Below are positions 3,569 through 29,242 of a stretch of 48,624 bases of DNA, piece by piece. The stretch covers positions 1 through 48,624 of the forward strand of contig JAPKDJ010000027.1 of the NCBI GenBank assembly GCA_026421245.1, written 5' to 3'. Numbering within the stretch: position 1 is the stretch's first letter; every line of letters starts with the position of its first letter. The translations under genes and the position numbers were made by a program. Source of the DNA: Akkermansiaceae bacterium (GTDB lineage Bacteria > Verrucomicrobiota > Verrucomicrobiia > Verrucomicrobiales > Akkermansiaceae). The notes below the pieces were generated by a model, which did not search any database, had not been told where the DNA came from, and saw nothing but the letters and a program-made list of their open reading frames with translations.

Positions 3569-4966
3569 ATGCGTTCCAATTCTGCGCTAGCTCTTGATCG
3601 TCGTCACTTCCTTCACCGTTGTGGAATGGGGATGGGAGCATTGGGACTTGGAGACATCCTGCACTCGGAAGTGTCGGCCGCTAACTCTGTTCCGCATTTC
3701 CCTGGTCGTGCCAAACGAGTGGTCCACTTTTTTCTCAATGGCGGACCGTCGCATGTGGACACCTTCGATCCCAAGCCCGCCTTGCAGAAGTATGCGGGCA
3801 AGGAATTGCCGCAGGGTAAGTTGCGCACCGAACGGAAGACCGGCGCGGCCTTTCCCTCGCCTTTCGAGTTCAAGCAATACGGTGAGAGCGGGATCGAGGT
3901 GAGTAGCATCTTTCCGAAGATTGCCGCCTGCATCGACGACATTGCGGTCATTCGCTCCATGAAGGCCAAGGTGCCCAATCATGAACCTTCCCTCATGCTC
4001 ATGAACTGTGGCGACGCCATTCTGAGCCGACCGAGCGTGGGGTCATGGGCTACCTATGGTCTTGGTTCGGACAATGCAAATTTACCGGCCTTTGTTGCGA
4101 TGTGCCCAGGAGGATATCCCATCAAGGGCGCCCAGAACTGGCAGGCCGGGTTCCTTCCCGGAGCATTTCAAGGTACTTTCATCGACAGCAAGCACAGTAA
4201 GGTGGAGAAGCTCATCGAGAACATCCGCAACAATGGACAATCGCCTTCCCAACAGCGCGCGCAGTTGAATTTCTTACAGGCCCTGAATCGAGGGCACCTG
4301 GAGGCGCGCGGCGGGTCGGATGACAAACTGCGGGCGCGGATCCAGAGTTTTGAACTGGCCTATCGCATGCAGATGGACGCCACTGATGCCTTTGATCTCG
4401 AACGCGAGCCCGATCACATTCGCGATCTTTATGGACGCGAAGTACACGGGCGGCAGACCCTCATTGCGCGCCGTCTCCTAGAACGAGGCGTGCGCTACGT
4501 CCAACTCTGGCACGGTGCAGGCCAACCATGGGACAATCACGATAATATCAAGGAAAACCATAGCAAACTCGCTCGGGAATTGGACGGTCCGGTCGCCGCC
4601 TTGCTCACCGATTTGAAGCAACGCGGGATGTTGGAGGACACCTTGGTGATCTTCGGAGGCGAATTCGGCCGCACTCCCACGGTGGAGCTCACCGGGGCCG
4701 GAAAATCAAAGCTCGGCCGTGATCATAATCCCTACGGATTCACGGTTTGGATGGCGGGTGGCGGAATCAAGGGAGGAACCATCTACGGCGCCACTGATGA
4801 ATTCGGATTCGAAGCCACGGAGAATGTAGTCGAAGCCCACGACCTTCACGCCACGATCCTTCATCTCCTAGGCTTTGATCACGAGAACTTCACCTATCGC
4901 TACGCCGGTCGCGACTTCCGCCTCACTGATGTGGCAGGTGAGGTGATTCGTGATGTGGTGGCTTAG
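3569..4966 (+). CDS. DUF1501 Tat-exported protein
   Basis: 465 residues. A twin-arginine signal (DRRHFLHRCGMGMGALGLG, residues 10-28) predicts folded export. The rest matches the DUF1501 family: HFFLNGGPSHVDTFDPKP near residue 52, a central LIARRLLERGVRYVQLWHG, and an alkaline-phosphatase/sulfatase-like C-terminal FGGEFGRTPTVE with GRDHNPYGFTVWMAGGG. DUF1501 proteins belong to the alkaline phosphatase superfamily fold, but no substrate is known. It follows the DUF1549/DUF1553 gene by 2 nt, so the two are almost certainly one transcript. I see no broken motif. Confidence 0.93.
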   Translation: MRSNSALALDRRHFLHRCGMGMGALGLGDILHSEVSAANSVPHFPGRAKRVVHFFLNGGPSHVDTFDPKPALQKYAGKELPQGKLRTERKTGAAFPSPFEFKQYGESGIEVSSIFPKIAACIDDIAVIRSMKAKVPNHEPSLMLMNCGDAILSRPSVGSWATYGLGSDNANLPAFVAMCPGGYPIKGAQNWQAGFLPGAFQGTFIDSKHSKVEKLIENIRNNGQSPSQQRAQLNFLQALNRGHLEARGGSDDKLRARIQSFELAYRMQMDATDAFDLEREPDHIRDLYGREVHGRQTLIARRLLERGVRYVQLWHGAGQPWDNHDNIKENHSKLARELDGPVAALLTDLKQRGMLEDTLVIFGGEFGRTPTVELTGAGKSKLGRDHNPYGFTVWMAGGGIKGGTIYGATDEFGFEATENVVEAHDLHATILHLLGFDHENFTYRYAGRDFRLTDVAGEVIRDVVA

Positions 4967-5226
4967 CGCGTAACTCCGCCGTCGTAGACGAAGTTCCAGC
5001 GCTCATTACTTTCTGACGGAGGTGGAGTGTTCCATCCATAGGAAGCTAAGACTTTGCTCTTTTTCAAATTGAGATCGAACTTGTTAACCTGTGCGAACTC
5101 GTCTGCCTTCCCTTGGAGCCTCACCAATAGGATCAAGAATTTTCCTTCCCTAAGTTCCTTGGCGATATCAAGCCGTTCGCCCCCCCCCTTTCCTCCCCCT
5201 CCCCTCCGATCAAAAGGCGGCTTCAA
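4963..5226 (-). pseudogene. Possible gene remnant, 87-codon frame starting in a repeat
   Basis: Open frame whose only start (TTG at 5226) lies inside dispersed repeat copy 2 and whose first residues come from the repeat and a C9 tract. From about residue 19 it becomes protein-like (KELREGKFLILLVRLQG, then LASYGWNTPPPSE and RWNFVYDGG) and stops convergently against the DUF1501 gene with 4 bp overlap. I do not recognise a family. The likeliest reading is the C-terminal stub of a gene cut by the repeat; a chance frame is also possible. Confidence 0.25.
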
Positions 5227-20670: not shown

Positions 20671-20743
20671 GCTCTAATTCTTATGTCCGACATCTCAAAA
20701 TTCAAAGTTCATTTCCCTCTCGTCCTTGCTTACCTTCATTTTC

Positions 20744-22222
20744 ATGAAGTGGATCATCCCTTTCCTCGCAACCGCCGCCCTCGCCTCCTCCGAGCAAAAG
20801 AAGCCTAATATCGTCTTCATCCTCGCCGATGACCTCGGCTACGGAGAACTCGGCTGCTACGGACAGAAAAAAATCAAAACTCCCAATATCGACCGTCTTG
20901 CCAGCGAAGGGATCAAATTCACCCATCATTACACCGGAGCCCCAGTCTGCGCGCCCGCCCGGTGCGTCCTCCTTACCGGACGCCACCTCGGCAATGCCGA
21001 AATTCGCTCAAATGGAGACTCCAAAAACGGCCGCAAATTCCCCGGCCAATGGCCAATCACCGCCGGAGCAGTCACCCTCGCCGAAGCTCTCCAAAAAGGC
21101 GGCTACGTCAGCGGTGGCTTCGGCAAATGGGGCCTCGGACCAACCGATACCTCCGGTTCCCCCATCAAACAGGGATTCAATCGATTCTACGGCTATAACT
21201 GCCAGCGCAATGCTCACTCCTTCTTTCCGCCCTTCCTCGACGACAATGAGAAAATTGAGATCATCAACGAAAGCCCCATCCCAGGCCACCAGCGGAAAGC
21301 AGAGGGCGAAGTGAAAGCCGATGACTATCGTGATCAGACTTACGCTCCTGATCGCATCCTTGAAGAAGCTCTCGAATTCCTCGACGAAAACAAAGAAAAG
21401 CCCTTTTTCCTCTACCTTCCCTTCGTCGAGCCCCACGTCGCCATGCATCCGCCCCAGGAGTGGATCGACCGCTACCCGAAAGAGTGGGACGATAAAAAAG
21501 GGCCTTATCGAGGTCAAAACGGCTACCTGCCCCACCCGCGACCCCGTGCTGGCTACGCTGCCATGATTTCCGATCTCGACGAGCACGTCGGCACCATCCT
21601 CGAACGCCTCAAAAAGCATGGTCTCGAAGAGAACACCATCGTGGTCTTCACCTCTGATAACGGAACGACCCATCCCGGCCGCGATCCCAAATTCCACATC
21701 GGTGGGGTCGATGCTCCCTTCTTCAACTCCACGGCCGGTCTCCGGGGCTGGAAAGGCTCCGTCAACGAGGGCGGCATCCGCGTCCCCGCCATCGTTCGCT
21801 GGCCCGGAAAAATCAAGCCCGGCTCCAGCACCTCGGCACCGTCCTACTTCCCCGATTGGTTCCCCACCTTCTGCGCCATCGCCAAAACCGCCGCTCCCAA
21901 GGGGCTCGACGGAACCGACCTCACTCCCGCTCTCACCAAAGGCACCTTCAAACGAACCAAACCCATGATCTGGGAATTCCATGGCTACAGCGGACAACTC
22001 GCCGTCATCGACTTCCCCTGGAAGGCCGTCCGCCAGAAGGCCAAGACCAAAAAACCCGGCGATTGGCAACTCTACAACCTTGAAAAGGATGCCGCCGAAG
22101 CCAACGACCTTGCCGCCAAACACCCCAAGATCGTCAACCGCCTCGAAAAGGTCTTCAAAAACGACCGCACCAAAAGCGAACGTAATAAGCTTCCGCTCTA
22201 CGATCTCGTGAAACAAAAATAG
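20744..22222 (+). CDS. Exported type I sulfatase
   Basis: 492 residues from ATG 20744, which opens a signal peptide (MKWIIPFLATAALASSEQ); the frame is open 18 nt further up from a TTG. Metal and active-site motifs: NIVFILADDLGYGELG, and CAPARCVLLTGR with Cys69 the residue converted to formylglycine, the CxPxR-type signature with Ala for Ser/Cys at position 3. FTSDNGTTHPG and AGLRGWKGSVNEGGIRVP follow. It would desulfate carbohydrate polymers in the periplasm, needing a formylglycine-generating enzyme not seen here. The cytochrome, amidohydrolase and DUF1552 genes follow on the same strand. Confidence 0.95.
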   Translation: MKWIIPFLATAALASSEQKKPNIVFILADDLGYGELGCYGQKKIKTPNIDRLASEGIKFTHHYTGAPVCAPARCVLLTGRHLGNAEIRSNGDSKNGRKFPGQWPITAGAVTLAEALQKGGYVSGGFGKWGLGPTDTSGSPIKQGFNRFYGYNCQRNAHSFFPPFLDDNEKIEIINESPIPGHQRKAEGEVKADDYRDQTYAPDRILEEALEFLDENKEKPFFLYLPFVEPHVAMHPPQEWIDRYPKEWDDKKGPYRGQNGYLPHPRPRAGYAAMISDLDEHVGTILERLKKHGLEENTIVVFTSDNGTTHPGRDPKFHIGGVDAPFFNSTAGLRGWKGSVNEGGIRVPAIVRWPGKIKPGSSTSAPSYFPDWFPTFCAIAKTAAPKGLDGTDLTPALTKGTFKRTKPMIWEFHGYSGQLAVIDFPWKAVRQKAKTKKPGDWQLYNLEKDAAEANDLAAKHPKIVNRLEKVFKNDRTKSERNKLPLYDLVKQK

Positions 22223-22242
22223 GCCACTTCCGTAATGGAAGC

Positions 22243-24495
22243 ATGCGCCTTTGGATTTTTCTTAGCCTCTTAACCATCCTTCCCGCAAGCGGGAAGGATG
22301 GAGCGGAGATCTACACCCAACACTGTGCCTCCTGTCACGGAGACCAGGGTCAGGGCGTAGCCAATGAATACGACGAAGCCCTCGTCGGGAAAAAAACCAT
22401 CGCCTCGTTGGCGAAATACATCCACCGCACCATGCCGGAGGATGACGAAGATGCTGTCATTGACGAGGATGCTCTCCACGTTGCCGAATACATCCACGCC
22501 GCATTTTACTCGCCAGAAGCCCAAGCCAAAATCAAGCCGGTCCGAAAGGACCTCCTCCGCCGCACGCAGCACCAACACCGGCGCGCCATCACCGACATCG
22601 TGCAGTCATTTAGAGGTCGCGCCTCGATGGGAGGAGAAAACGGTCTTCGGGGTCATTATTTCAACAAGGAGAAGATGGATAATCGTAAGAAGGAGTTGCT
22701 CAAGAGGGTCGACCCCACCATCGATTTTGACATTCACAATGATCACGGCGTTGAAGGTCTCAACCCGAAAGCCCATGCCATCTATTGGGCAGGCTCAATT
22801 CTTCCCCCTGAAACCGGGACCTACCAGTTCCGGATCAACACCCCTAACGGGGTCCGCGTCTACATAAACGAACCAAATCAACAGAACGACGCTTTCATCG
22901 ACGCCTGGGTCTCCTCCGGAAACAAAATGCGGTCGATCGAAGCGCCCCTCTTCCTCCTCGGGGGACACGCTGTCCCCATCGCGATCGACTTTGTCTGTTA
23001 CAAGGAAGAAAAGTCCTCCCTCTCCCTCGACTGGAAACCTCCCCACGGAACTTGGGAGCCCGTTCCCTCCCGCGTCCTTTTCGTCGACAGCTCAAGTGAG
23101 GCCGCTCTTATTTCAACCCCCTTCCCAGCCGATGATGCCTCGCTCGGCTACGAACGCGGTTCCTCAATTTCCAAAGCCTGGAAGGAAGCCATCACCAATG
23201 CCGCCATTGAAGCAACCGGCCTGATTTTTGATGACATTGATGAACTTGCTCGCACCAAATCTGACCAGCCGGACCGAGGTGAGAAACTCAAAAACTTCTG
23301 CTTTGACTTCGCCTACCGAGCCTTTTCCAGACCCCCCACCGGGGCCCAGCGCAAAACTTACATCGACAACGTTTTTGCCACTGCTGGTGATGACTATGAG
23401 ACCGCAACCAAGCGCTCTCTCATGCTCATTCTCACCTCTCCCTATTTCCTTTATCCATCGTTAAACCGAAACGAAAATGGCGAGCCCGACAACTTCACAA
23501 CCGCCTCCCATTTCGCGCTGACCATTTGGGATTCCGTCCCCGATCAAAAACTTATGGATTCCGTATCCAAAGAGCACATCACCACCCCCAAACAAATCGA
23601 AGATCGCCTTTGGAACATGATGGGAGACCCGCGTGCAAAGACCAAACTCCACAGCTTTTTCCACCACTGGCTAAACCTCTCCGAAAAAGAAGACCTCGAC
23701 AAGGATCCCAAGCTTTTCCCCGGATTCGATAAAAAAATCATCGCCGACCTCCGGACTTCTCTTGATCTCTTCATCGACGGTGTTGTCTGGTCCGAGCAGT
23801 CCGACTACCGCAGCCTCTTCACCGAGGACAGGATCTACCTCAACCCGCGTCTCGCCGAGTTCTACGGCGCTCCAAGACCCCAAACGAACTCCTTCGAACT
23901 CCTCCCCACTCCTGACAAAAAGCGGGCCGGACTCTTCACCCACCCCTACGTTCTCACCGCCTTTTCCTACCACAAACAAACCTCCCCCATCCATCGCGGT
24001 GTCTATCTCAGCCGTAACGTCCTCGGGCGCTTCCTCAAGCCCCCGCCCAATGCCATTGAATTCAAGGACGCCGACTTTAAGCCCGACCTCACGATGCGCG
24101 AAAAAGTCACCGACCTCACGAAGGATGAAAACTGCATGGCCTGCCATTCCATCATCAACCCCGTTGGCTTCAGCCTGGAGAACTTCGATGCCATCGGCCG
24201 CTTCCGGACTCACGAAAAAAACAAGCCCATCAATACGGTCAGCGACTACTCCACCGCCGAGGACGAGACCGTTAAAATTACGGGCCCTTCCGACCTCGCC
24301 AAACTGGCCGTCGAATCAAAGGGGGCACACCGCGCCTTCTTAAAACACCTTTTCCATCATCTCATCCAGCAATCCATCAACACCTATGGCTTAGGAAAAA
24401 TGAATCACCTTCACGAAGTTTTCAAAAACACCAATTTCCATATTCAGAGCATCATGGTGACGATGGTGAAGGAAACGATTCCAGCAAAAGACTGA
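22243..24495 (+). CDS. DUF1592/DUF1588 protein with N-terminal cytochrome c and PA14-like domains
   Basis: 750 residues. A short signal peptide (about 1-17) is followed by cytochrome c haem site Cys28-Cys31-His32 (CASCHGDQGQG). A PA14-like domain spans about 130-280 (LRGHYFNKEKMD, PETGTYQFRINTPNGVR). Then come DUF1592 and DUF1588 blocks and a second haem motif, Cys631-Cys634-His635 (ENCMACHSIINPVGFSLENF), and a DUF1585-like end. This PVC family is coupled to DUF1552 proteins and is suspected to transfer electrons in polymer oxidation. A 28-nt palindrome lies in the signal-peptide codons. Confidence 0.92.
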   Translation: MRLWIFLSLLTILPASGKDGAEIYTQHCASCHGDQGQGVANEYDEALVGKKTIASLAKYIHRTMPEDDEDAVIDEDALHVAEYIHAAFYSPEAQAKIKPVRKDLLRRTQHQHRRAITDIVQSFRGRASMGGENGLRGHYFNKEKMDNRKKELLKRVDPTIDFDIHNDHGVEGLNPKAHAIYWAGSILPPETGTYQFRINTPNGVRVYINEPNQQNDAFIDAWVSSGNKMRSIEAPLFLLGGHAVPIAIDFVCYKEEKSSLSLDWKPPHGTWEPVPSRVLFVDSSSEAALISTPFPADDASLGYERGSSISKAWKEAITNAAIEATGLIFDDIDELARTKSDQPDRGEKLKNFCFDFAYRAFSRPPTGAQRKTYIDNVFATAGDDYETATKRSLMLILTSPYFLYPSLNRNENGEPDNFTTASHFALTIWDSVPDQKLMDSVSKEHITTPKQIEDRLWNMMGDPRAKTKLHSFFHHWLNLSEKEDLDKDPKLFPGFDKKIIADLRTSLDLFIDGVVWSEQSDYRSLFTEDRIYLNPRLAEFYGAPRPQTNSFELLPTPDKKRAGLFTHPYVLTAFSYHKQTSPIHRGVYLSRNVLGRFLKPPPNAIEFKDADFKPDLTMREKVTDLTKDENCMACHSIINPVGFSLENFDAIGRFRTHEKNKPINTVSDYSTAEDETVKITGPSDLAKLAVESKGAHRAFLKHLFHHLIQQSINTYGLGKMNHLHEVFKNTNFHIQSIMVTMVKETIPAKD
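22274..22301. repeat. 28-nt near-perfect palindrome in the signal-peptide codons
   Basis: Arms CCATCCTTCCCGC (22274-22286) and GCGGGAAGGATGG (22289-22301) are perfect reverse complements separated by AA; 13 bp pairing, with a loop of two nominal bases. It begins 31 nt after the ATG. Confidence 0.9.
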
Positions 24496-24562
24496 GCGTG
24501 GTGCAAACACTTGATTCCCGGTCCCGGCTTGTGTCGTGAAAAGGAATCCGCATCATCAAGAG

Positions 24563-25522
24563 ATGCACATGGAATCATCTCCGGAGGTTGGCTTGGTCTT
24601 GGACGATCTCTACACCAAGCACCTCACCGGGCAACATCCGGAGCACTTTGCCCGCTACCAGGCCGTCACCGCGATGTTTCAAGAATCCGGTCTGGAAGCT
24701 GGAATGAAGACCATCAAATCGCGCCCTGCCAGAATTGATGAGTTAAACATGGTCCACGATGGCTCATACGTGTCCCTGGCGGAGAAAGAGATTCTCTCCG
24801 GTGTCGAGCAACTCTCTACAGGCGATACCGCGGTTTGCCCCGACAGTTGGATGGTTGCCACACACGCTGCGGGTGCGGTCTGTGCCGCTGCCGATGAAGT
24901 CTTTTCCGAAGACGCCAACAGCGTCAAACGAGCTTTCTGCGCCGTTCGGCCTCCGGGGCATCACGCCACCCCCAACCGGGGGATGGGATTCTGCGTTTTC
25001 AACAATATCGCAATCGGAGCCCGATATGCTCAGCAGAAATTCGGAATTGGAAAAGTCGCCATCCTCGATTGGGACGTTCACCATGGCAACGGAACCCAAG
25101 ACATCTTCTATGACGATGAAACGGTTCTTTTTTGCAGCACCCACCAATCACCATGGTTTCCCGGCACCGGATTCGAGGATGAATTGGGAACCGGAAAGGG
25201 CCGAGGCTATACCTTGAACGCCCCCCTTCCAGCAGGATCGGAAATGAGCCAAATCGGCGGCCACATTGACGACCGTTTCGTGTCTGCAATGAGGAAATTC
25301 AAACCGGAACTCGTGATGATTTCCGCAGGCTTCGATTCCCGCCTAGGTGATCCCTTGGGACAGTTTCGTTTGCTTGATCAAGACTACACAACTCTCACTC
25401 GGTGGATGCGGCGAATCGCCGATGAGTTCGCCGACGGGCGCCTTATTTCAGTTCTCGAAGGGGGCTACTCTCTTCAGGGATTATCGGCCGGAGTCGAAGC
25501 CCATGTCAGGGCCTTAGAATAA
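24563..25522 (+). CDS. Histone deacetylase-family amidohydrolase
   Basis: About 319 residues from ATG 24563 (a GTG at 24536 would add 9 residues; neither start has a clear SD). Family motifs are complete: FCAVRPPGHHATPNRGMGFC, AIGARYAQ, ILDWDVHHGNGTQDIFY, ISAGFDSRLGDPLG and VLEGGYSLQG. The metal ligands Asp-His and Asp are in WDVHHG and GFDS. Bacterial members deacetylate acetylpolyamines or acetylated small amines. It lacks a signal peptide, so it acts in the cytoplasm, unlike its exported neighbours. The gene sits between two genes that are normally adjacent. Confidence 0.92.
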   Translation: MHMESSPEVGLVLDDLYTKHLTGQHPEHFARYQAVTAMFQESGLEAGMKTIKSRPARIDELNMVHDGSYVSLAEKEILSGVEQLSTGDTAVCPDSWMVATHAAGAVCAAADEVFSEDANSVKRAFCAVRPPGHHATPNRGMGFCVFNNIAIGARYAQQKFGIGKVAILDWDVHHGNGTQDIFYDDETVLFCSTHQSPWFPGTGFEDELGTGKGRGYTLNAPLPAGSEMSQIGGHIDDRFVSAMRKFKPELVMISAGFDSRLGDPLGQFRLLDQDYTTLTRWMRRIADEFADGRLISVLEGGYSLQGLSAGVEAHVRALE

Positions 25523-25591
25523 ACCGGAAATATCATTTTGCGTGTAGATTTCCAGTGGCACGACCGTATAACAAAGAGATCTCTTTTCGTC

Positions 25592-26899
25592 ATGACTTCC
25601 AGACGCCAATTCCTTCGCGACCTCGGCATTACCGCCGGAGCCCTTCCCTTCGTCTCCGGCCTGCCTTCGTTTGCCGCCACCAATGTCGGTGGAATCAAAA
25701 AGCGGCTCATCTTCATGTTCTCGCCGAATGGCACTGTCCCGGCAAAGTTTTGGCCGTCGCAGGATGGAACCCTCGCTAGTTCTGCCATTCTTGCGCCACT
25801 CGCACCCTTTCAAAAACAGGTCACCGTTCTTAAGGGGATTTCAAACCTCGTCGGTGGCGATGGCGACCGACACATGCGCGGAATGTCATGCCTCCTCACC
25901 GGAGCCCGCCTTCATCCCGGAAACATTCAGGGTGGTTCCGACAGCCCCGCCGGATGGGCCTCAGGTATCTCCATCGATCAGGAGGTCAAAAACTTCCTCC
26001 AAAAAAACAAAGAGACCCGTACCCGCTTTGGATCGCTCGAAATTGGGGTCGCGGTCCCGGATCGAGCTGATCCCTGGACCCGCATGTGCTATGCTGGCTC
26101 CAACCAGCCGCTGGCACCACTCGACGATCCCTACCAGATGCTCAATAAACTCTACGGGCAGTCCAAAGACCGGGAAACCTACGCTTCGATACTCGAGACC
26201 CTTGGCTCAGATCTCAAACAGGTTTCCCAAAAGCTTTCCTCTGAGGATCGTGCGCTTCTGGAACAGCACATGACTCTGGTTCGTGAAATGGAGCGCGAAA
26301 TGGCCGACGCCGCGCAGACTGGTGAACTCGCCCACCCGGAGCCTGAGCTCGATCCCAACATTGAACTCGTCAACGATAACACGCCCCAGCTGGCTCGCAT
26401 GCAGATTGACCTCCTCGTCAACGCCATGGCAAACGATATGACCCGGATTGGCTCACTTCAGTTCATGCGCTCGGTCGGACAGGCCCGCATGCGCTGGCTC
26501 GACATCAACGAAGGACACCATTCCTTAAGCCACGAGCCGGACAAAAACGAAGGGGCCCAGGAGAAACTCGAAAAAATCAACATCTGGTTCGCTCAGCAAC
26601 TCGCCTACCTCGCCAAAAAGCTCAAAGAGACCCCCGAAACCGGTCAGAACGGTAACATGCTCGACCACACCACCATCGTCTGGGTGAACGAACTCGGGAA
26701 AGGCAACACCCACACTCTGGATGACCTTCCCATCGTCATGGTGGGCGGAGAAGCCACCAGGACCCCTGGCTTCCACGACGTCGGAAACAAGATCCCCCAC
26801 AACCGCCTTCTCATGACCCTAGCCCACTCAATGGGCCACCGAATTCAGACCTTCGGAGAAAAGAAGTGGTCACACGAAGGCCCGCTTAAGTGGTCTTAA
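25592..26899 (+). CDS. DUF1552 Tat-exported protein
   Basis: 435 residues from ATG 25592; the longer frame from TTG 25538 is not used because the twin-arginine signal SRRQFLRDLGITAGALPF starts just after this ATG. The body has DUF1552 features: LIFMFSPNGTVPAKFWPS, DRHMRGMSCLLTGARLHPG, SISIDQEVKNFLQ-like GISIDQEVKNFLQ, and a C-terminal WVNELGKGNTHTLDDLPIV block. DUF1552 proteins are alkaline-phosphatase-superfamily-like exported proteins that travel with DUF1592/DUF1588 cytochromes. Its 3' end overlaps the converging lgt gene by 14 bp. Confidence 0.93.
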   Translation: MTSRRQFLRDLGITAGALPFVSGLPSFAATNVGGIKKRLIFMFSPNGTVPAKFWPSQDGTLASSAILAPLAPFQKQVTVLKGISNLVGGDGDRHMRGMSCLLTGARLHPGNIQGGSDSPAGWASGISIDQEVKNFLQKNKETRTRFGSLEIGVAVPDRADPWTRMCYAGSNQPLAPLDDPYQMLNKLYGQSKDRETYASILETLGSDLKQVSQKLSSEDRALLEQHMTLVREMEREMADAAQTGELAHPEPELDPNIELVNDNTPQLARMQIDLLVNAMANDMTRIGSLQFMRSVGQARMRWLDINEGHHSLSHEPDKNEGAQEKLEKINIWFAQQLAYLAKKLKETPETGQNGNMLDHTTIVWVNELGKGNTHTLDDLPIVMVGGEATRTPGFHDVGNKIPHNRLLMTLAHSMGHRIQTFGEKKWSHEGPLKWS

Positions 26900-27970: not shown

Positions 27971-29242
27971 TTACGGTCGCACCGGAATGGCAATCGGTTG
28001 CCTCAAAAACCGGCACGCCCCTTCGGCTCCTTCACAGACGTAATAATACGCAGCCCCTTGAATTTTTTCGGGAAGCTCCTTTCCCTTCAACGCCCGCAAT
28101 TCAAACTCAATCGTCCGTTCCTCGGCACTCGTCGCTTTGTCCTTAGGAACCTGAGAAAGTTGAAGATCATGCACCGTAAAGCGATCTTCCGAATCAAAAT
28201 GAAAACTAACATTCCCGGCATCATTGGTCCAATGGATCTTCTTTTCCGCCGACGGCCTGAATCGAAAATGAACCCGCACCGCAACCCCGTCTCCCTTCGT
28301 TGAAGGAACAACGACCACAGAAGACGCCACAAGCTTACCGGAATCAGCAGCTACTTTCCCCTCGGGATCAGGATGCTTTACTTTCTGATTCGCAGCTCCC
28401 CCCGCTTTCTCAGGGTAGGCAAACTCCGAACCTCCGGGTTCCACCGTCAACCGATGAGCAACCTCTCCTCGCTCCTTCAATTTTTTTCGAGATTCATTCA
28501 CCCAATCGTAGAACGAATATGGCTTATCCAACCTTGGACCATACTGCTGAATCCGTCGTCGCCAGATATATTGATCAGGCTTCAGTTCCAGAGCCTTCCG
28601 CCAAGAAGCCATGGCCTTTCCAAAATCTCCCTCCTTCCTGTCTTTCGAATCAAACCTTTGCCTCAAAGCCACCCCGTATCGGAAGTGCGCCACCGGATTC
28701 TTGGGGGTTTTCTCCAATTCCTTTCCAAGCTCCTTCAAATGGCCATCAAAAGAATAATCCACTTCTTGAATCATCGTTCTCGGATAAAGCGCCGCCATGA
28801 ATGCCTCCAGATCTTTTCCCGACGGATTCTTGTATCGGATGATGCCGGAACCATCCACAAGCAGCGTAATCGGCACCACCTTGACTCCAAGTAGATTGAA
28901 AGGATCCGCCAAAACGGGCCAGTCCATCTTCTGCCACTGCATATACAAAGCGGCCCGGTCGGGATGCTGTTCCTGCACGATTCCAAGCGACTGCAACTTT
29001 CCCGCTTTTACCAGTTCATCTGTTTTGGCATGCCACACCGGCACGCGCTTTCGACAACCAGCTCACCAAGAAGCAAAAATGTGGAGAATGGTCTTCTTGC
29101 TTAGGTAAGCGCGGACAGCTTTCACCTCCCCGGTCGAAACATTCTCGAACGAGAAGTTGGCTACCGGTCTCCCGACGGAAAGATTCGGAGCTGGCGCAGC
29201 TGAAATCCGAAGGATTAACAAAAAACAGATTAACAATCTCAC
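27971..29242 (-). CDS. Secreted redoxin (AhpC/TSA-like) with in-frame TGA at the CxxC site: candidate selenoprotein
   Basis: 424 codons, interrupted only by TGA at 29065-29063. The upstream part starts at GTG 29242 (GGAGG just before it) or TTG 29236; the frame is closed above by TAG at 29257, so the start is well bounded. It encodes a signal peptide (RLLICFLLILRISAAPAP) and then KKTILHIFASW-TGA-AGCRKR, where W-C-x-x-C is expected: the TGA replaces residue 60, Cys 63 remains. The frame resumes flawlessly with VPVWHAKTDELV, VLADPFNLLGVKVVPITLLV (redoxin core), a helical KNPVAHFRYGVALRQR region and a C-terminal beta domain. Ordinary gene calling would begin at the internal GTG 29044 and lose the active site. 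Alternative: nonsense mutation of a Cys codon. Lgt follows downstream. Confidence 0.8.
29028..29046 (-). promoter_or_regulatory. Candidate bacterial SECIS hairpin
   Basis: On the minus strand, arm GCGTGCC (29046-29040) pairs with GGCATGC (29034-29028), 7 bp including one G-U, closing a loop GGUGU (29039-29035). The loop begins 23 nt after the TGA. Bacterial SECIS elements are short stem-loops within the coding sequence right after the UGA with G in the first loop positions; the E. coli fdhF loop is GGUCU. Confidence 0.6.

Follow-up and report, generated by a model that had tools for sequence, protein, structure and literature searches.

An in-frame UGA very probably encodes selenocysteine in a three-domain TlpA/ResA-like redoxin of an Akkermansiaceae bacterium

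Introduction

The window analysed here, a 48,624-nucleotide stretch of DNA from an Akkermansiaceae bacterium, carries on its minus strand a redoxin gene (positions 27971–29242) with one in-frame TGA at 29065–29063. This TGA is very probably read as selenocysteine (Sec), because the genome encodes the Sec machinery, all 70 distinct homologous sequences share the TGA, a covarying hairpin is kept behind it and the family co-occurs with selA. We consider it highly likely that SelB and tRNA-Sec decode the UGA via this hairpin and that the gene yields a probably exported redoxin of the TlpA/ResA type, whose active site is U-A-G-C.

Results

A single TGA lies at the first cysteine position of a redoxin motif

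The gene runs from GTG 29242 to the TAA at 27973–27971 and encodes 423 amino acids with Sec at residue 60. The TGA (29063–29065, minus strand; codon 60) is the sole in-frame stop between these ends, and the residues around it, FASW-U-AGCRKRVPVW, match the WCxxC pattern of redoxins with Sec replacing the first Cys. An earlier note on this DNA had placed the TGA within one open redoxin frame, between a Trp and A-G-C, with a GGAGG near the start and a frame-closing TAG above it, and the sequence bears this out. The TAG shuts the frame five codons upstream of GTG 29242, and the GGAGG ends 3 nt ahead of that GTG and 9 nt ahead of an alternative TTG (29236). The GTG start is backed by near relatives (L038, L039, L040 and L023), which have an ATG or GTG 59–60 codons before the TGA. 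Read with table 11, the locus yields a truncated ORF of 357 amino acids from GTG 29044, which has neither the active site nor the signal-like segment, as the note had also described.

In the whole window, 118 TGAs each link a pair of open stretches that are both 40 codons or longer, so the open frame alone is weak evidence. The conservation of the TGA in 70 of 70 sequences, together with the covarying hairpin, far exceeds chance. In comparisons with the four nearest relatives, pN/pS is 0.23–0.38 before the TGA and 0.22–0.28 after it, with pS at 0.70–0.81 and thus near saturation.

The TGA is conserved among homologues from several phyla

Homologues were collected with searches that read through stops, using a query and models with Cys at the Sec column. 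A match was present in 14 of the 288 genomes searched from the order, and scanning genome_contigs identified 41 loci. The sequences from both sources, after identical stretches were merged, form a first set of 41 distinct sequences that cover the Sec column, all with TGA. Profile searches in two further phyla (those of genomes G650 and G661) added 29 distinct sequences, again all with TGA. The resulting 70-row alignment thus has TGA at the Sec column in every row; it spans Verrucomicrobiota, Planctomycetota, Acidobacteriota and single bins of other phyla, with identities to the window protein as low as about 34%. One match in the order, L034 in G250 (G250:C81:46685-46954, minus strand), spans residues 226–315 only and is likely a remnant of a decayed family gene; G250 has kept selA.

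When TGA was not demanded, the strong matches that cover the column had TGA in 17 of 17 cases in the phylum of G650 and in 20 of 20 in that of G661; eight of these loci duplicate first-set sequences, and an extra short row (L127) is blank at the motif. The phylum of G661 contains 42 genomes with a place scoring above 160 bits, of which 20 were fetched and checked at the column. For the remaining 22, a TGA is reported inside a place that covers the N-terminal part, at an unspecified position within it.

No cysteine form is found among the strong matches checked

None of the strong matches checked in the bacterium's own phylum or in those of G650 and G661 has Cys at the Sec column. The earlier note had anticipated either Cys or Sec in relatives; TGA was found in the relatives examined, and Cys in none of them. 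The search for a Cys form covered 387 genomes from the bacterium's phylum, 396 from that of G650 and 392 from that of G661, with four candidates scored per genome, and therefore a diverged Cys form could have escaped it. The own-phylum search gave matches in just two genomes. Scores in the G650 phylum fall from 218 to 93 bits and from there to 80.5 bits, where the 93-bit match is the second fragment of one gene; in the G661 phylum they fall from 164 to 99 bits, and some weak matches have an internal TGA. Eleven weak matches at or below 80.5 bits were fetched from the G650 phylum: ten encode TlpA-type proteins and read TGC or TGT, and the eleventh, L102 from G846, has TGA in U-G-C. Because the relatives examined have TGA only and no Cys, the family appears to be Sec-only. 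In the portion of the GOS survey table considered here, most selenoprotein families have Cys homologues.

The L102 protein, with the motif W-U-G-C, has a redoxin domain followed by a TPR-like region, as in the window family. It is without the C-terminal beta domain that the window protein has, and it looks like a sister selenoprotein type.

A SECIS-type hairpin follows the UGA and is kept beyond coding needs

Just downstream of the UGA lies a SECIS-type hairpin, GCGUGCC-GGUGU-GGCAUGC (29028–29046, minus strand), with G in loop positions 1 and 2. The bacterial SECIS model, in the part of its source considered here, specifies an apical loop of 3–9 nt located 16–37 nt after the UGA, a G in the first two loop positions, a stem of 4–16 bp and an energy of at most -7.5 kcal/mol (PMC13188914). 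The window hairpin falls within all of these bounds, with 7 bp, an apical loop from +23 nt after the UGA and a stem energy of -10.8 kcal/mol. All 41 first-set sequences share the geometry, with a 5–7 bp stem and the loop placed at +23 or +24, and the stem-only energy misses the -7.5 limit in some relatives (for example, -5.5 in L038). All 70 of 70 sequences form the five inner pairs and have a G within the first two loop positions.

The mean stem energy is -7.9 kcal/mol, versus +0.5 kcal/mol under synonymous codon shuffling, where 200 shuffle means go no lower than -2.85; in this scoring the absence of a hairpin counts as +9, and 55% of the draws hold a qualifying hairpin of at least 5 bp. For single sequences the excess is modest, with 1% to 57% of synonymous shuffles equalling the observed hairpin (3.5% for the window). 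The Val codon in the stem is GTG in 39 of the 40 sequences with Val at this place, versus 478 of the 1295 Val codons in the rest of the genes. RNAalifold recovers the hairpin unaided; the predicted fold of the entire downstream stretch is not always the SECIS-type hairpin.

Paired cells make up 98.8% of the total for the 41 sequences and 98.1% for a set of 69 distinct ones. The covariation score was reached by none of 500 shuffles in either set, and the number of pairs changed on both sides was reached by 10 of 500 shuffles with the 41 sequences and by 52 of 500 with the 69. Stem variants in which both arms are altered jointly include CUGCC/GGCAG, AUUCC/GGAAU, AUACC/GGUAU and GUACC/GGUAC, and the first three of these also change the amino acids encoded by each arm. 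The hairpin, as a set, is kept beyond protein-coding needs, and it is a clear case of amino-acid changes accompanying RNA pairing.

The host encodes the selenocysteine machinery

The host genome (G000; 4.3 Mb in 192 contigs, 93.5% complete) contains SelA (479 bits), SelB (299.5 bits, profile positions 2–577 of 581), SelD (387.8 bits) and tRNA-Sec (55 bits), each above its curated cut-off, and ARAGORN identifies this tRNA as tRNA-SeC with the anticodon TCA (UCA in RNA). The complete set of selA, selB, selC and selD, which the earlier note had named as the genes to look for, is thus present; its proposal that the TGA occupies a selenocysteine position is upheld by this machinery and by the TGA at the same column in relatives. 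The host selD (L018, G000:C68:142009-142938, minus strand) has its own in-frame TGA, at GGUASK, followed by a SECIS-type hairpin that fits the geometry of the redoxin gene's hairpin. The same genome holds a second TlpA-like Sec candidate (L137, G000:C80:10613-10849, plus strand) with an in-frame TGA in FW-U-GPC and a possible hairpin 31 nt downstream of it (loop GGUC, -5.8 kcal/mol).

Within the order sample, a selA match occurs in 14 of 14 genomes with a homologue versus 95 of 288 overall (hypergeometric 9e-8, with relatedness ignored); the match in G199 is partial and below cut-off. Among the 41 genomes behind the genome_contigs loci, SelB is above cut-off in 33 and SelA in four of the eight others. 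Neither protein is above cut-off in 4 of the 41, one of which has a piece of SelA at contig base 6. The order sample and these host genomes overlap, and several share identical family sequences.

Six family loci read by eye have no shared neighbour gene. In G654, the family gene (L112, contig C22) and selA share a contig and are separated by about 3 kb. In the acidobacterial locus L058, a peroxiredoxin-like frame (about 4356–4982, plus strand) directly 3´ of the family gene has an in-frame TGA at GGW-U-PYC and is possibly a Sec peroxiredoxin, judging from its sequence. In the window, 20726–26899 holds ORFs that we take, from the look of their sequences, to be sulfatase-like and of DUF1552/DUF1592 type. 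Viral contigs gave no exact match to one active-site DNA pattern, and tblastn against plasmids gave three weak redoxin-domain matches.

The predicted protein contains a redoxin, a TPR-like and a beta-sandwich domain

The protein starts with a signal-peptide-like segment (residues 1–19; 29186–29242, minus strand), a hydrophobic stretch judged by eye. Inspection by eye shows similar segments in the majority of the 41 relatives; L068 has none and L060 is cut. A TlpA/ResA-like thioredoxin-fold (redoxin) domain follows (residues 21–160; 28763–29182, minus strand), with U60-x-x-C63 and P124, as indicated by Pfam, AlphaFold2 and Foldseek. The window protein scores 28.4 bits against PF00578 (AhpC-TSA; gathering cut-off 26), and all 41 members match AhpC-TSA or Redoxin at E-values up to 1, the best being 4.8e-13. 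The next part is a TPR-like helical segment (residues 169–257; 28472–28738, minus strand) with the conserved YIWRRRIQQYGPRLDKPYSFYDW, recognized from the alignment and the AlphaFold2 model; the window protein itself stays below the Pfam cut-off of the TPR models. The C-terminal beta-sandwich domain (residues 298–423; 27974–28351, minus strand), delineated by the models and Foldseek, contains C403 and C410 in a C-x6-C arrangement.

Residues A57, W59, Sec, A61, G62, C63, R64, P68, W70 and P124 are invariant in the 41 sequences, as is most of the TPR-like motif; in the sequences added from other phyla, residue 61 is also V or Q. Among the rows that have letters at these columns, all 40 keep C403 and all 39 keep C410. 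The AlphaFold2 model built with the family alignment has a mean pLDDT of 85.8 and the same three domain boundaries, and Foldseek ranks ResA, DsbE and related proteins on top for the whole model. Modelled alone, the C-terminal domain reaches a pLDDT of 93.6; its top Foldseek matches are DsbD N-terminal domains (E 1.5e-3, TM about 0.5), and adaptin-ear Ig-like domains rank lower. The predicted model places C403 and C410 in the last beta hairpin. The TPR-like segment, this beta domain with its Cys pair and the SECIS-type hairpin do not figure in the earlier note.

Comparison with known proteins

ResA, TlpA and DsbE (CcmG) oxidoreductases share the thioredoxin fold, the W-[CU]-x-x-C motif and the conserved Pro (124) with the window protein, which differs from them by its Sec at the first Cys position and by its two additional domains. 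The best NCBIfam match (release 20) of the window protein is NF041054, WAxxUGC_long (ResA-like), which is also the closest family for the 41 members (best E 2.8e-28); no NCBIfam match of the window protein comes close to a cut-off. Membership is rejected, with 40.5 bits against a cut-off of 300 and the motif UAGC rather than UGC.

The C-terminal domain resembles the DsbD N-terminal domain (PF11412) in predicted fold only, and its predicted beta-sandwich and the Cys pair near its end may correspond to those of DsbD. By eye, the Cys spacing is C-x6-C in the window family versus C-x5-C in E. coli DsbD (QGCADAGFC). The PF11412 search assigned no family to the domain of the window protein and matched 2 of 40 members (best E 0.065), and hhalign against E. 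coli DsbD gave a probability of 0.2%; neither sequence search thus gave a significant match in favour of a DsbD-type domain.

UxxC redoxin selenoproteins are already catalogued. A 2026 catalogue of 119 selenoprotein families includes, in the part considered here, a 'Redoxin family protein' (PF08534, UxxC; PMC13188914), which it attributes to PMC2398784 and PMC5029168. Like the window family, that entry has a redoxin domain with Sec first in UxxC and is predicted only; from its description alone, it may or may not be the window family. For 'Prx-like 3' (pfam08534, UxxC), the GOS table, in the portion considered, counts 68 homologues with Sec and 2,608 with Cys; for the window family, in contrast, no Cys member was found. 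No description of the three-domain architecture of redoxin, TPR and beta-sandwich was found in the open-licence literature searched, supplements excluded; selenoproteins of Planctomycetes are reported in a supplementary table (PMC4807772), which could include the window family.

Discussion

Insertion of Sec at the UGA has to be weighed against two other fates of this codon. If the TGA were a true stop, arising from a nonsense mutation or a sequencing error or bypassed by a restart at GTG 29044, the 357-residue ORF would be available and the open frame behind the TGA would be one of the many TGA-joined stretches in the window. We regard this as highly improbable, since the identical TGA recurs in every distinct sequence across several phyla and purifying selection acts both before and after it; a restart would, moreover, leave A-G-C-R, which lies between the TGA and GTG 29044 and is invariant in the 41-row set, untranslated. 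Translation of the UGA as another amino acid such as Trp or Cys, through an altered code or suppression, draws on the fact that a translated UGA does not by itself specify the residue. It is just as hard to credit: TGA is the gene end in 16 of the 39 family rows with a complete end, so it also works as a stop codon, and each gene has a single internal TGA, always with the hairpin next to it, in the presence of the Sec machinery. The pseudogene, restart and code-change readings are thus rejected on the TGA conservation, the hairpin, the selection and the terminal use of TGA.

With Sec at this position, SelB and tRNA-Sec would decode the UGA under the guidance of the mRNA hairpin (29046–29028), and the product would be exported, as its N-terminal hydrophobic segment suggests. 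The Sec60–Cys63 pair would alternate between a selenenylsulfide and the selenol/thiol form and would reduce oxidised extracytoplasmic proteins or small molecules. More tentatively, C403-x6-C410 may act like the DsbD N-terminal domain and pass electrons to the redoxin site within the same polypeptide. We propose that the protein acts outside the cytoplasm as a thiol-disulfide reductase whose electron relay is internal.

A competing view accepts Sec and assigns the protein mainly to a peroxidase partnership or to cytochrome-c maturation in the manner of ResA/CcmG, and we hold this to be a serious possibility, at somewhat longer than even odds. The best relatives in fold and sequence are ResA, DsbE/CcmG and Etrx proteins, archaeal peroxiredoxins are also among the matches (superposed poorly), the Pfam family bears the name AhpC-TSA, and the next gene in L058 looks peroxiredoxin-like with its own in-frame TGA; the C-terminal domain, moreover, also matches adaptin-ear Ig-like folds. 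However, the peroxiredoxin motif TxxU is absent, the W-U-x-x-C pair is as in thiol-disulfide reductases, and no cytochrome-c maturation gene was seen by eye in the six loci.

Returning to the reductase with an internal relay, we see about an even chance that it represents a distinct, undescribed Sec-obligate family of Verrucomicrobiota, Planctomycetota and Acidobacteriota, which unites a UxxC redoxin, a TPR region and a DsbD-alpha-like C-x6-C domain in a single exported protein. If so, one molecule would carry its own complete selenium-based electron relay, for which the genomes sampled offer no cysteine counterpart. Genes of this sort are prone to mis-annotation, because table 11 drops the active site and the signal-like segment and leaves only a fragment. 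That only Sec is found in a family extending over several phyla suggests a reaction for which selenium may be required and which probably takes place outside the cytoplasm.
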